In this document: piece by piece, positions 18,493 through 38,740 of the stretch
Position numbering within the stretch: the first letter of the stretch is position 1
How the letters are laid out: every line of letters begins with the position of its first letter
NCBI RefSeq assembly: GCF_001586255.1
Contig: NZ_CP014544.1
Location: 2,139,501-2,203,500, forward strand
Direction: 5' to 3'
Origin: Zhongshania aliphaticivorans
Lineage (GTDB): Bacteria > Pseudomonadota > Gammaproteobacteria > Pseudomonadales > Spongiibacteraceae
Length of the DNA stretch: 64,000 bases
Program-made: the position numbers and the translations under genes
The notes under the pieces: model-generated
What the model was told of the DNA's origin: nothing
Seen by the model: the letters and a program-made list of their open reading frames with translations, nothing else
Databases searched by the model: none

Positions 18493-19500
18493 TTAAGATG
18501 TTGTTTCTAATTGCTTTTCGATTTGAGCCTGCAAATCATTGCGAACCGCCCTTGCGGCCTGACGAATTGCCGACTGAAATCCTTGCGCGCCGGAACTGCC
18601 ATGGGTTTTTACGACAATGCCGTTAAGCCCAAGCAGTGCCGCGCCATTATAGCGATCGGGATTAATGTCGCGCTGGAACGCCGTGATTACAGGGCGAGCC
18701 AAAAGGCCCACGAACATACCGTATAAGTTTTTTTTGAATCGAGCTCGCAGCTGGCTCGCTATAAAACTTGCCGTACCTTCGCAGACCTTTAACGCCACAT
18801 TGCCTGCAAAACCATCACAAACAACCACATCGACGTCCGCCGAAAACAGATCGCCACCCTCAATGAAGCCGCAATAATTCAAACGAGAATCCGCACTAAT
18901 AAGTTCAGCAGCATCCCGTATGGTCGCAGTTCCCTTAGTCAGCTCAGAGCCGATATTCAATAGCCCTACGCGAGGCGACTCACTGCCATCAAGAACCCGA
19001 CACAAGGCCGAGCCCATTTGCGCAAAGTGATGCAATTGCTGGGCATCGCATTCGACGTTGGCACCAAGATCAAGCAGGAAAGTATGGCCGCTCACGGCGG
19101 GAACCGGCGCACAGATGGCCGGGCGCTTGATGCCAGGTAAACGCGTTAACACAACACAACTCATAGCAACGAGCGCGCCAGTGTTCCCAGCGCTGACCAC
19201 AGCGGAAACAATACCGTCGCGAAGCAGCTCAAGAGCAATGTACATTGAGGAATTTTTTTTGCTACGAAGTGTTCGACTGGGTTGATCATCCATGGCCACG
19301 ACATCGGGCGCATGATGAACACTTAAGCGAGTCGAATCAAATTTTTCACTGGCAAGCGCAAGCGTAATGGCAGGCTCATCGCCGACCAAGAGGATATGAA
19401 GAGCTGAATTGAGATTCAGCGCATTTACAGTGGCAGGAATAGAAGAGCGGAGACCGTGGTCTCCGCTCATTGCATCAACGGCGAGTCGCAGCGATGCCAC
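18493..19500 (-). CDS. plsX: Phosphate acyltransferase PlsX
   Basis: Makes acyl-phosphate from acyl-ACP for the first step of phospholipid synthesis. The 335-residue protein begins MASLRLAVDAMSGDHG and contains SAGNTGALVA, LDLGANVECDA, LNIGSE and VVCDGFAGNVALK, all typical. The start is a GTG at 19500, 8 bases after the rpmF stop, with no strong ribosome site, so it is probably translationally coupled to rpmF. Confidence 0.96.
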   Translation of the reverse strand: MASLRLAVDAMSGDHGLRSSIPATVNALNLNSALHILLVGDEPAITLALASEKFDSTRLSVHHAPDVVAMDDQPSRTLRSKKNSSMYIALELLRDGIVSAVVSAGNTGALVAMSCVVLTRLPGIKRPAICAPVPAVSGHTFLLDLGANVECDAQQLHHFAQMGSALCRVLDGSESPRVGLLNIGSELTKGTATIRDAAELISADSRLNYCGFIEGGDLFSADVDVVVCDGFAGNVALKVCEGTASFIASQLRARFKKNLYGMFVGLLARPVITAFQRDINPDRYNGAALLGLNGIVVKTHGSSGAQGFQSAIRQAARAVRNDLQAQIEKQLETTS

Positions 19501-26451: not shown

Positions 26452-27678
26452 ATGAGTGACAGCAGCACACTGCTAATGGCCCGCCAACCCATACTAGATA
26501 GGTACGGAAAAACCGTAGCCTATGAATTGCTTTGCCGCTCAGTCGAAATAGACTCACTAAAATCACAAAACGAAAATGGCACTATGGCGACGGGCGAAGT
26601 TTTAATTGGCGCCTTTCATGACCTCGGCATCGACGCCATTACCAATGGGCTCCCCGCTTTCGTTAATCTCACTGAGTCTTGGTTGTGCAACCCTCCCGCA
26701 GTGCAAGCCCAACAGCTCGTCTGTGAAGTGCTTGAATATATCTCTGCCACACCAGCCAATATTGAAGCCGTTCAGCAACTTCGTAAGCTCGGCTTTAAAG
26801 TCGCCCTAGATGACTATATTGGCGACCCCGAACAGGGCAAATGGCTCCCCTACGTTGACATCGTTAAAGTGGATATAAGTGATTTATTACCCGGCTACAG
26901 TTCTGCATCATTGCTGCAGCAACACCAGCGCGATGGCTTGATTTGGCTAGCAGAAAAGGTTGAAACCGTTAAAGAGTTTGAGCGCTGCAAAGAAGAAGGC
27001 TACAGTCTTTTTCAGGGCTTTTTCTTCAGTCGGCCAGCCCCTTTATTCGGTAAACGCAACAATGACAGCCAATTTGCGGTTATGCGCTTATTGAAAGTAT
27101 TAAGCAATGACGAAAACACGATGCTGGATATCAGCAGCGCGATTCAAAGCGACCCACAGCTAAGCTACCGCATTCTGCAGTTCATGAACTCGGCCAGCGT
27201 TGCAAAAGTGACAGAAATCACCTCGGTGCATCATGCGGCCACCATGGCTGGAGTCAATCGCATAAAGTCGTGGGCCACTATGCTGGCGCTGGGTCGCCTA
27301 GACCACAAACCCCGCGCCCTGTTAGAGCAAGCACTATCGCGCGCCTATTTGTGCCAATTGCTCGCGCAAAAACATGGCGACGCAGATCAGCACACCGCAT
27401 ACACTACTGGCATGTTTTCACTGCTAGACGCCTTTATAGACATCCCGCTGGAAGACGTTTGCTCAAAACTTGGCTTATCCGCAACCATGACGGCGGCCCT
27501 CCTCGATCACTCGGGAGCTTACGGTGAAATTCTCGACCTTGCAATTGCCCTAAGCAAGGGCAATTGGCCCCAAATTACAGCCTTATCGCCCGATATTAGC
27601 CTAGCGGACCTTGCCGATATTCAAAGTAAAGCATTTACCGAGGTTAGCCAGCAATTAAGATTAACTGGATTAAGCTAA
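26452..27678 (+). CDS. EAL-HDOD domain signalling protein (YuxH type)
   Basis: A 408-residue cytosolic protein with an N-terminal EAL-like domain (about 5-200) and a C-terminal HDOD domain (about 205-395). EAL landmarks remain: YELLCR (in place of E(A/V)LxR), FVNLTE, CEVLE, ALDDY, VKVDI, AEKVET and QGFFFSRP. The metal/loop motif DDFGTGYSS is replaced by DDYIGDPEQG, so c-di-GMP hydrolysis is uncertain. HDOD proteins usually act as protein-protein signalling modules (chemotaxis, motility, stress). It lies alone between tRNA-Ser and yccA. Confidence 0.9.
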   Translation: MSDSSTLLMARQPILDRYGKTVAYELLCRSVEIDSLKSQNENGTMATGEVLIGAFHDLGIDAITNGLPAFVNLTESWLCNPPAVQAQQLVCEVLEYISATPANIEAVQQLRKLGFKVALDDYIGDPEQGKWLPYVDIVKVDISDLLPGYSSASLLQQHQRDGLIWLAEKVETVKEFERCKEEGYSLFQGFFFSRPAPLFGKRNNDSQFAVMRLLKVLSNDENTMLDISSAIQSDPQLSYRILQFMNSASVAKVTEITSVHHAATMAGVNRIKSWATMLALGRLDHKPRALLEQALSRAYLCQLLAQKHGDADQHTAYTTGMFSLLDAFIDIPLEDVCSKLGLSATMTAALLDHSGAYGEILDLAIALSKGNWPQITALSPDISLADLADIQSKAFTEVSQQLRLTGLS

Positions 27679-27769: not shown

Positions 27770-28441
27770 ATGCAAGACAAATCGGTCTTTCAGACAGGCG
27801 CGCACGCCCAGCCCGTTCTCGAAACCAACAAGGTGCTGCGCAATACTTATATGCTGCTAGGCATGACCCTTGTCACTAGCGCACTCTGCGCTGGCCTGGC
27901 AATGGCCCTCAACATCGGCCATGGCACTGGACTAGTTTTGTCCATACTCGGCTTTGTCATGCTGTTTGTAGTCCACAAAACCGCAGATTCAAGCAAAGGC
28001 ATTATTGCCATATTTGTATTCACTGGCCTATTGGGTGCAGCCCTCGGACCAATGCTAAAAATGTACCTCTCGCTACCCAATGGCGGCGAGCTAGTAATGC
28101 AGGCTCTTGGCGGCACCGCCCTGGTGTTCTTTGGCCTTTCAGCCTATGTATTAACTACCCGTAAAGACTTCTCCTTTCTCGGCGGTTTTTTGATGATCGG
28201 TTTGCTGGTCATGGTCGTTGCCAGCATTGCGAACCTATTTTTCCAGGTGCCCGCGGCATCGCTGGCAATTTCAGCCGCAGCCGTATTTATTATGTCTGGT
28301 TTGATTTTGTTTGATACCAGCAGAATCATCCATGGCGGCGAAACAAATTATATTCGCGCGACCGTCGCCCTCTATCTGGATATTTACAATCTGTTTGTAC
28401 ACTTACTGCATTTGCTTGGCATTTTTGGTAGCGATGATTAA
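27770..28441 (+). CDS. Bax inhibitor-1/YccA family membrane protein
   Basis: A 223-residue protein with about seven hydrophobic segments from residue 25 on. LYLDIYNLFVHLLHLLGIFGSDD at the C-terminus is the family end motif, and ISAAAVFIMSGLILFDTSRII is another conserved block. E. coli YccA interacts with the FtsH protease. It precedes tusDCBE, as in Pseudomonas. A perfect hairpin lies between this gene and tusD. Confidence 0.93.
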   Translation: MQDKSVFQTGAHAQPVLETNKVLRNTYMLLGMTLVTSALCAGLAMALNIGHGTGLVLSILGFVMLFVVHKTADSSKGIIAIFVFTGLLGAALGPMLKMYLSLPNGGELVMQALGGTALVFFGLSAYVLTTRKDFSFLGGFLMIGLLVMVVASIANLFFQVPAASLAISAAAVFIMSGLILFDTSRIIHGGETNYIRATVALYLDIYNLFVHLLHLLGIFGSDD

Positions 28442-28468
28442 TCACCCCCTAAGTGCACCTGCAACTCA

Positions 28469-28492
28469 ACTGAGGCTCTCATGAGCCTCAGT
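28469..28492 (+). promoter_or_regulatory. Perfect 9-bp hairpin over the tusD ribosome site and start codon
   Basis: ACTGAGGCT (28469-28477) pairs exactly with AGCCTCAGT (28484-28492), leaving a six-base loop CTCATG whose last three bases are the tusD start codon (28481-28483). The only ribosome site, TGAGG, is in the 5' arm. TTTCGCTTT follows the stem, so it could also act as a weak terminator of yccA. Either way it should limit tusDCBE expression. Confidence 0.7.
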
Positions 28493-28888
28493 TTCGCTTT
28501 ACTCGTCAGCGGCCAACCCTGTACCGACCAATCTAGCTTAACTGCCCTACGTTTTTGCCAAGCAGCCCTCGATAGTGGTCATCAAATTTACCGGGTATTT
28601 TTCTTTAACGATGGTGTGCATTGCGCCAATCGCTTTACGACGCCTCCTCAAGATGAAATTGCGGTACCGAAGCAGTGGACAAACTTGCAGAAAACCTTTG
28701 ATTTAGATTTAGTTGTCTGTATTTCCAGTGCGCTGCGCCGCGGCATTGTGGACGCAAAAGAAGCTGCCCGCTACGAACTTGACGGCCACAACTTGGCTGA
28801 TGGCTTTAGCATTGGCGGCCTAGGTCAGTGGGTAGACGCATGCCAAAATGCTGACCGCGTCATTCGCTTTGGCGGTAATGCCCAGTGA
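28481..28888 (+). CDS. tusD: Sulfurtransferase complex subunit TusD
   Basis: The catalytic subunit of the TusBCD complex, which relays persulfide sulfur from TusA to TusE for 2-thiouridine at wobble position 34 of Lys, Glu and Gln tRNAs. In the 135 residues, the active-site Cys80 in LDLVVCISSALRRGIVD corresponds to E. coli Cys78. The stop overlaps the tusC start by 4 bases (GTGA). The start codon sits in a hairpin loop (see 28469-28492). Confidence 0.94.
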   Translation: MSLSFALLVSGQPCTDQSSLTALRFCQAALDSGHQIYRVFFFNDGVHCANRFTTPPQDEIAVPKQWTNLQKTFDLDLVVCISSALRRGIVDAKEAARYELDGHNLADGFSIGGLGQWVDACQNADRVIRFGGNAQ

Positions 28889-29238
28889 CATTTTTGTATT
28901 TGTTTACACGAGCACCCTACGGTCACAGCATTGCCCGAGAAGCATTGGATATGGCTTTGGCCAGCGCCGCATTCGATCAACACGTCAGCCTCGTTTTTGC
29001 TCAAGATGCGATTTATCAATTACTCAATACGCAAGATAAAGGCAATACCGAAAAAAAACCGCATATCGGTGTAATCAATGCTCTGCCGCTGTACGAAATT
29101 GAGAATATCTATTACCTTAGTGACGACTGCACGAGCAGAAACATATCAGCCACAAACTTGGCACCCCACGCTAAAGCCCTCTCCGCCACAGAACTCGCTG
29201 ACTTAATGCGCAGCGCCGATCGAATACAGAGTTTTTAG
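28885..29238 (+). CDS. tusC: Sulfurtransferase complex subunit TusC
   Basis: A DsrF-like subunit of TusBCD, 117 residues, with the family pattern LFTRAPYGHSIAREALDMALASAAFDQ, VSLVFAQDAIYQLL and IGVINALPLYEIENIYYLSD. It overlaps tusD by 4 bases and abuts tusB. Confidence 0.93.
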   Translation: MTFLYLFTRAPYGHSIAREALDMALASAAFDQHVSLVFAQDAIYQLLNTQDKGNTEKKPHIGVINALPLYEIENIYYLSDDCTSRNISATNLAPHAKALSATELADLMRSADRIQSF

Positions 29239-29502
29239 GTGAGCCTACATATATTAAGCAGCCCGAGCAGCCTAAACCGATGCCTTTTCAGTATGAGCGA
29301 CGGTGATGCTCTTATCCTTATCGAAGACGCCGTCGTGCTTGCCGCAACACAAATTACACTTGAGCACCGCAATATTCGTATTTCGGCATTGAGCGACGAC
29401 GTTGATCGTCGCGGAATAAGCCCAATTGCGGCGATAACGCTGGTCGACTACCCTGGCTTTGTCGCGCTCTGCGCGCAGCACCGTCACTGCTTGAGCTGGT
29501 AA
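29239..29502 (+). CDS. tusB: Sulfurtransferase complex subunit TusB
   Basis: A DsrH-like subunit of TusBCD, 87 residues, starting at a GTG (29239) directly after the tusC stop. It shows the family opening LHILSSPSSLNRC, GDALILIEDAV, and the C-terminal half VDYPGFVALCAQHRHCLSW. The order tusD-C-B-E is canonical. Confidence 0.92.
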   Translation: MSLHILSSPSSLNRCLFSMSDGDALILIEDAVVLAATQITLEHRNIRISALSDDVDRRGISPIAAITLVDYPGFVALCAQHRHCLSW

Positions 29503-29503
29503 G

Positions 29504-29839
29504 ATGGCGGCGATAATCGTAAATGGCTGCAGCATCGCCACCGACCCTGATGGCTTTCTCAAAGACCTCAAAGATTGGTCCCCCGCCGTCGCCGAGGAGC
29601 TCGCCGCGGAAGCCGACATTAAGCTTAGCGATAGCCACTGGCAATTAATCCAGCTCGTACAGCACTATTATCAGCAATTTGGCCTGTCCCCCGCGATGCG
29701 GCCACTGATAAAATACGCCAAGCTAACGCTCGGCGACGACAAGGGTAACAGCCTGTATTTTCTTAAGCACTTTCCCGGCAGCCCGGCAAAGTTACTCAGT
29801 AAAATTGCCGGGCTGCCCCGCCCCGACAACTGCCTGTAA
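29504..29839 (+). CDS. tusE: Sulfur relay protein TusE (DsrC family)
   Basis: TusE accepts persulfide from TusBCD and hands it to MnmA. The 111 residues end in PRPDNCL with the conserved penultimate Cys110. WSPAVAEELAAEADIKLSDSHW and YYQQFGLSPAMRPLIKY are diagnostic of DsrC/TusE. It starts one base after the tusB stop codon. Confidence 0.94.
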   Translation: MAAIIVNGCSIATDPDGFLKDLKDWSPAVAEELAAEADIKLSDSHWQLIQLVQHYYQQFGLSPAMRPLIKYAKLTLGDDKGNSLYFLKHFPGSPAKLLSKIAGLPRPDNCL

Positions 29840-38226: not shown

Positions 38227-38258
38227 GAAAAAAAAGCGAAGCAGACGCTTCGCTTTTT
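38227..38258 (-). terminator. Terminator of tRNA-Gly
   Basis: AAAAAGCGAAGC (38231-38242) pairs with 38247-38258 around a four-base loop, with eight T following on the minus strand. Confidence 0.9.
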
Positions 38259-38706: not shown

Positions 38707-38740
38707 AAAAAAAAAGAGAAGCATTTCTGCTTCTCTTTTT
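38707..38740 (-). terminator. Terminator of tRNA-Glu copy 2
   Basis: AAAAAGAGAAGCA (38711-38723) is a perfect complement of 38728-38740 with a four-base loop. Nine T follow on the minus strand. Confidence 0.92.

Follow-up and report, generated by a model that had tools for sequence, protein, structure and literature searches.

A terminator that sequesters a ribosome-binding site is already known. In the leader of cplR, which encodes an ABCF factor in C. difficile, the intrinsic terminator hairpin also sequesters the Shine-Dalgarno (SD) sequence of the open reading frame, and breaking the stem raised reporter output more than 10-fold over that of the induced wild type (accessible text of PMC10201436). 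Here, we investigated a hairpin that covers the start of tusD, the gene downstream of yccA, in Zhongshania aliphaticivorans and its relatives. Our literature search returned nothing on the regulation of yccA-tusD, and for a terminator placed over a start codon it returned the cplR precedent; the accessible part of PMC8297930 makes no mention of PA2604, PA2605, tusD or yccA. Altogether, our analysis points to an ordinary device in an unusual place and not to a new kind of switch.

The tusD hairpin resembles the cplR leader, as far as the accessible text describes it, in that one hairpin is predicted to act both as a terminator and as a cover for the downstream ribosome site, damping read-through transcripts (PMC10201436). 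However, cplR has an upstream open reading frame (uORF), a ribosome-stalling signal, and an alternative antiterminator, none of which we found at the tusD hairpin. Moreover, the tusD hairpin would form the 3' end of an unrelated gene upstream, and the element itself contains the start codon and the U-tract. The leader of B. subtilis vmlR is similar in layering transcription and translation attenuation before a single open reading frame, but there, in the portion of PMC9226507 available, the terminator (SL-3) and the SD-sequestering stem (SL-4) are separate, and the uORF responds to antibiotics. Finally, in translational coupling by RNA unfolding, as outlined in the accessible sections of PMC12548453, structure likewise covers a downstream start, and expression may depend on the upstream gene. 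At our locus the yccA stop codon lies 26 to 32 nt before the stem across the hairpin-bearing junctions, and thus a ribosome that terminates on yccA would probably neither reach the stem nor open it.

The stretch of DNA that we analyzed, hereafter the window, is 64,000 nucleotides long. It encodes on its plus strand yccA (27770-28441, with a TAA stop at 28439-28441), a membrane protein of the Bax inhibitor-1 family (Pfam Bax1-I, E 5.7e-53), followed after a gap of 39 nt by tusD (28481-28888; DsrE, E 1.1e-23), whose product is 99% identical to TusD of Zhongshania antarctica in the same genus. The three genes that follow are nearly unspaced. tusC (28885-29238; DsrE, E 1.9e-18) starts with GTG and overlaps the end of tusD, stop codon included, by 4 nt, tusB (29239-29502; DsrH, E 8.4e-16) starts with a GTG that abuts the tusC stop, and tusE (29504-29839; DsrC, E 1.7e-34) begins one base after tusB. 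This arrangement of GTG starts, overlap, and abutment likely gives tight translational coupling within tusDCBE.

The original prediction, made from the sequence of the window, placed the tusD start codon in the loop of a mismatch-free hairpin, and its coordinates are exact: ACTGAGGCT at 28469-28477, CTCATG at 28478-28483, and AGCCTCAGT at 28484-28492 form a perfect inverted repeat. The helix is longer than was proposed, since C28478 also pairs with G28483 and A28468 with T28493. The full helix thus comprises 11 perfect pairs between the 5' arm AACTGAGGCTC (28468-28478) and the 3' arm GAGCCTCAGTT (28483-28493), closed by the tetraloop TCAT (28479-28482), and it is separated from the yccA stop by a spacer of 26 nt (28442-28467). 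Consequently, the loop holds only the A and U of the start codon (28481-28483), whose G opens the 3' arm; this arm extends from the third base of codon 1 to the first base of codon 5. The only SD-like bases, GAGG at 28472-28475, 5 nt before the ATG, are inside the stem, as had been predicted. Downstream of the 3' arm, and overlapping its end, is the U-rich stretch TTTCGCTTTACT (28492-28503; 7 of 12 bases are T), which encodes codons 4 to 8 of tusD and resembles the tail of a terminator whose core stem is 9 bp.

This fold is far more stable than those of shuffled sequences (z = -4.42, with none of 200 equally stable). In 464 kb of the genome, comprising the window and 20 sampled stretches, we found 20 perfect stems of at least 11 bp with loops of 3 to 8 nt, compared with 1 in a single first-order Markov copy of equal length. 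By rough gene calls, 18 of the 20 lie between genes, and many resemble terminators in having an A-run and a T-run. Among 389 starts called as the first ATG, some of them wrongly, the folding energy of the tusD region from -30 to +30 ranks eighth (-21.7 kcal/mol, against a mean of -9.5 with a standard deviation of 4.7). Two of the seven starts ranked above it were inspected, and both were judged to be miscalled. Of the candidates for further start codons within hairpins in the genome sample, the two inspected are these miscalled starts, and the one behind what we take from its sequence to be an ssb-like gene is a plain terminator. The tusD hairpin is not a repeated or mobile element, as it occurs at a single place in its own genome when up to 3 mismatches are allowed.

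How widely is the hairpin distributed? yccA is followed by tusD in all 18 genomes of the genus, giving 19 junctions (20 yccA-like entries, less a 52% paralogue in genome G006 that has no tusD next to it). The hairpin covers the tusD start at 11 of the 19, and the other 8 carry a separate stem-loop 5' of tusD. All 11 hairpin junctions fall in one clade with 98/98 support in a tree of yccA DNA, the root of which is unsure because the outgroup (G018) sits on a very long branch (9.8). The carriers are one group of marine Zhongshania. The position of the start within the hairpin is kept in 11/11 sequences, and in G006 (L038) tusD starts with a GTG that occupies the equivalent position in the loop of the same hairpin. 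One genome, G003, contains two differing yccA-tusD junctions (L036 and L050); this assembly is 84% complete and 7% contaminated, and it probably combines two strains.

Alignment of the 11 sequences indicates that the hairpin has been conserved as an RNA structure. Folds of 30 nt give 10 to 11 pairs, a loop of 4 nt, and energies of -14.3 to -19.1 kcal/mol in all of them, with one mismatch in G005. When the helix is scored as 13 pairs, 93% of the cells are paired, a value reached by none of 500 shuffles, and the departures are a single A-U to G-U change in three sequences, the mismatch in G005, and fraying of the outer pairs. One pair has changed in a compensatory manner, being A-U in eight sequences and U-A in three, and codon 4 of TusD changes with it, from Cys in the eight to Ser in the three. 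The covariation score was reached by 6 of 500 shuffles. However, the bare count of pairs altered in both bases is one, which 327 of 500 shuffles also reach, and on the tree the double change arose a single time. The covariation is therefore real but thin.

The contrast in substitution rates is stronger evidence. Mean identity is 0.40 in the spacer versus 0.90 in the 5' arm and 0.95 in the 3' arm. Invariant columns number 0 of 21 gap-free columns in the spacer, 7 of 10 in the 5' arm (alignment columns 40-49), 8 of 9 in the 3' arm, and 0 of 2 at the free loop bases (columns 50-51), which are the first two bases of the tetraloop, the last two belonging to the start codon. Codons 2 and 3 of tusD (AGC and CTC) are fixed in all 11 sequences, while of the 67 other degenerate columns at which the amino acid is constant only 2 retain a single codon. 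The sister species have not conserved codons 2 and 3. Given the rate contrast and the fixed codons, the simplest reading of the alignment is that selection acts on the RNA fold, and on this comparative evidence we regard the conserved RNA hairpin at the tusD start as real. The original prediction had made its case depend on covariation and on retention of the stem in close relatives, and it came through by half: there is one compensatory event, but the sister species lack the hairpin and have a separate stem-loop in its place.

What is this hairpin? Comparison with relatives points to the intrinsic terminator of yccA, and we think it likely that in one clade of Zhongshania this terminator sits on the tusD start and not in the gap between the genes. 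The original prediction had mentioned a possible yccA terminator as a secondary role of the hairpin; the junctions of relatives and the terminator scores make that role probable, and it is the comparison with relatives that makes it the primary identity. Outside the clade, 40 distinct junctions with yccA and tusD adjacent were available, 3 from sister Zhongshania and 37 from other genera (the order survey of 50 loci less 6 duplicates, 3 without yccA, and 1 in which the genes are not adjacent). At 29 of the 40, the gap contains a hairpin with a terminator score above 0; none of the 29 overlaps the tusD start, and the median distance from hairpin to ATG is 39 nt. The 11 remaining junctions do not score above 0, and at least one of them, L021, visibly has a bulged GCCCC/GGGGC stem followed by a T-run, which our ungapped score misses. 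Three of the eight sister junctions have strong stems and yet score below 0 (-19 to -30). L092, L099, and L102 were flagged as overlapping the start, but with scores of -74 to -130 they are not terminators.

Within the clade, the best-scoring hairpin of each of the 11 junctions is the one on the start codon. It has what is expected of a terminator in place and form, lying shortly after the yccA stop and consisting of a stable, G+C-rich stem with a short loop. Scored on ungapped stems with our own formula of the d'Aubenton-Carafa form, 10 of the 11 are above 0 (1.4 to 17.2, with 7.3 in the window and 1.4 in G015), and G005 is at -9.3. Nine are above the 99th percentile (2.1) of 300 random windows taken from the plus strand of the 64-kb window, which may themselves include real terminators. 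For G011, two scorings gave -19.1 and -12.2 since the scripts differ in the closing pairs that they allow. The U-tract reads TTTCGCTTTACT in the window and TTTTGCTATTCT in other hairpin sequences, and in each case it consists of codons for the hydrophobic beginning of TusD. It is weaker than its counterparts, with an nT of 2.7 to 3.7 in the 11 sequences compared with about 3.5 to 5.5 at the junctions of other genera that score above 0, and a simple terminator scan did not list the tusD-start hairpin as terminator-like. Taken together, the comparison shows that the stem is a conserved RNA structure and that, in the order, a terminator-like hairpin usually comes after yccA. We read the yccA terminator as having slid onto the first codons of tusD.

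The hairpin also bears on translation. In 120-nt folds of the 11 sequences, the mean probability of being unpaired is 0.001 to 0.163 for the SD region and 0.67 to 0.74 for the start codon, which is mostly unpaired because two of its bases are in the loop. The ribosome site is therefore held in stable pairing, as the original prediction supposed, and no SD-like bases lie outside the stem. However, the premise that burial of an SD sequence is what matters is weakened by the relatives. GAGG is present in 8 of the 11 hairpin sequences, and the other 3 have GGGG, with the pair kept as G-U. A tusD SD match of at least 4 is absent from all eight sister junctions, and 9 of the 10 loci tested in other genera have no SD match, against a background of 148 matches at 323 starts in this genome. 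Since the sister tusD genes lack an SD sequence, the buried one appears incidental, and GAGG is probably a by-product of the stem.

We propose that some of the transcripts from yccA terminate at the U-rich stretch encoding the beginning of TusD. On the read-through mRNA, the tusD start would be shut in a stem of approximately -18 kcal/mol, which would lower its translation; partial termination together with damped translation of tusD on read-through RNA is probably the outcome. Output of tusDCBE would then be low relative to yccA, with the element setting the ratio and no sensor needed, and the SD-like bases would be a side effect of the stem. Since the tusDCBE genes overlap or abut, the hairpin would govern how much of the entire relay is made. 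If this proposal is right, an upstream gene's terminator can shift into the beginning of the coding sequence that follows, where fixed codons retain it. Moreover, predictions of terminators and of start codons that assume separate places for the two would both err at such a site.

The original prediction held that the fold should restrain the relay unless heat, a ligand, a helicase, or upstream translation opens it. A dedicated translational switch of this type, whether RNA thermometer or riboswitch, would account for a conserved stem that lies over both the start codon and the SD position in 11/11 sequences, but we consider it very unlikely. Calculated with ViennaRNA parameters, the unpaired fraction of bases -10 to -7, a span that takes in three of the four SD-like bases, never exceeds 0.3% between 5 and 65 °C in any of the 11 sequences. 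The stem thus stays shut in silico over this whole range, and neither opening by heat nor an RNA thermometer is supported. Opening by a ligand fares no better. The spacer and the first two loop bases are unconserved, so that no aptamer is apparent, none of the 11 junctions has a 7-mer antiterminator partner within 400 nt upstream, and a riboswitch with a conserved aptamer or alternative fold is accordingly unlikely. Aside from five tRNAs, the window has no Rfam match at the gathering score. GAGG is lost from three of the 11 sequences and the eight sister junctions have no SD sequence, which also counts against such a switch. Could initiation itself control the terminator? If a 30S subunit bound around the AUG of the nascent RNA ahead of pairing by the 3' arm, it would block the stem. 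Because the AUG is in the loop and the terminator tail consists of the gene's own first codons, initiation and termination would be geometrically exclusive, and the register is kept in all 11 sequences. Nevertheless, the stem should fold within microseconds once its 3' arm clears the polymerase, GAGG is lost in 3/11, and we regard an attenuator of this kind as distinctly improbable. The same low expectation applies to a self-gated start, in which initiation and termination are the two exclusive outcomes of one fold and codons 2 and 3 are kept for it; such a start would need no leader peptide, ligand, or antiterminator.

tusD could instead be expressed from its own mRNA that starts inside or just after the 5' arm, with a very short leader or none, in which case the hairpin would be absent from tusD mRNA and would end yccA transcripts only. 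The absence of an SD sequence from the sister junctions and nearly all of the tested loci in other genera is consistent with such a start, and terminators often lie 11 to 40 nt before the ATG, which requires some start or some read-through in between. However, no -10-like hexamer is shared in the 60 nt before the ATG: a 4-of-6 match to the -10 occurs in 7 of the 11, its place differs among them, and the -35 matches at 3 of 6. The four promoter-like sites between 26000 and 33000 in the window are all on the minus strand. With no promoter or leaderless signature common to the 11, we hold a separate tusD mRNA to be unlikely. A protein dimer that represses tusD by binding the inverted repeat as a DNA operator would fit the near-perfect symmetry and the symmetric T-A/A-T swap. 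Against this, the A to G change in one arm of three sequences keeps the RNA pairing as G-U but breaks the symmetry of the DNA, which speaks for a transcript of this strand and against a palindrome read as DNA, and the core recurs at 12 other places in the genus, all of them T-tailed; we judge an operator highly improbable. Lastly, in favor of a chance palindrome, the element is short and one of its arms is under coding constraint. Yet the Markov copy yielded one stem of at least 11 bp in 464 kb, and the same hairpin recurs at 11 junctions with a compensatory change. This conservation refutes coincidence, to which we assign next to no probability. We therefore retain the yccA terminator as the preferred reading.

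Outside the clade, too, tusD mostly lacks an SD sequence in the tested junctions and often lies 11 to 40 nt behind a strong terminator (for example, L017, L018, L019, and L086). How is a gene with these features, placed just behind a terminator, expressed? This question extends across the order.

The core of the hairpin has counterparts elsewhere in the genus. The exact core GAGGYTC-N4-GARCCTC is present at the tusD start in 7 of the 11 junctions, one in each of 7 genomes, and at 12 further places in the 18 genomes, all of which are hairpins with a T-run on at least one strand. This recurrence is a further line of evidence for the terminator reading of the tusD hairpin. Eight of the 12 follow a 5S rRNA gene, four of them at a distance of 16 nt and the rest at about 260, 260, 359, and 447 nt. 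Among the other four, the one in G010 is a hairpin with a T-tail in a different setting, and the remaining three have no 5S match in the stretch examined. Directly behind the 5S rRNA gene of G004, the core reads AACCCGAGGTTCATCTGAGCCTCGGGTTTTTTT. In sister Zhongshania, the rrn terminators AACCCGAGGTTC-N4-GAGCCTCGGGTTTTTT share with the tusD hairpin the GAGGYTC/GARCCTC core, the tetraloop, and a T-rich tail; those 16 nt behind the 5S gene are at L143:1498-1530, L153:1498-1530, L151:1932, and L142:1501. In contrast to the tusD hairpin, whose tail is codons 4 to 8, the 5S rRNA terminators lie outside coding starts and have longer T-runs. The hairpin-clade genome G000 has a different rrn terminator, as do, read by eye, the window's own three rrn operons. 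The likeness between the tusD core and rrn terminators might reflect either descent or convergence.

Other hairpins in the window were noted in passing. Perfect 10-bp stems are found at 27542-27566, in the final coding part of the gene that precedes yccA, and at 19445-19468 on the minus strand, within the MSGDHG region of what is presumably, judging by this motif, a plsX-like gene. Hairpins with paired A-run and T-run adjoin tRNA genes at 38231-38258 and 38711-38740, and terminators of this paired form are frequent in the portion of the genome that we sampled.
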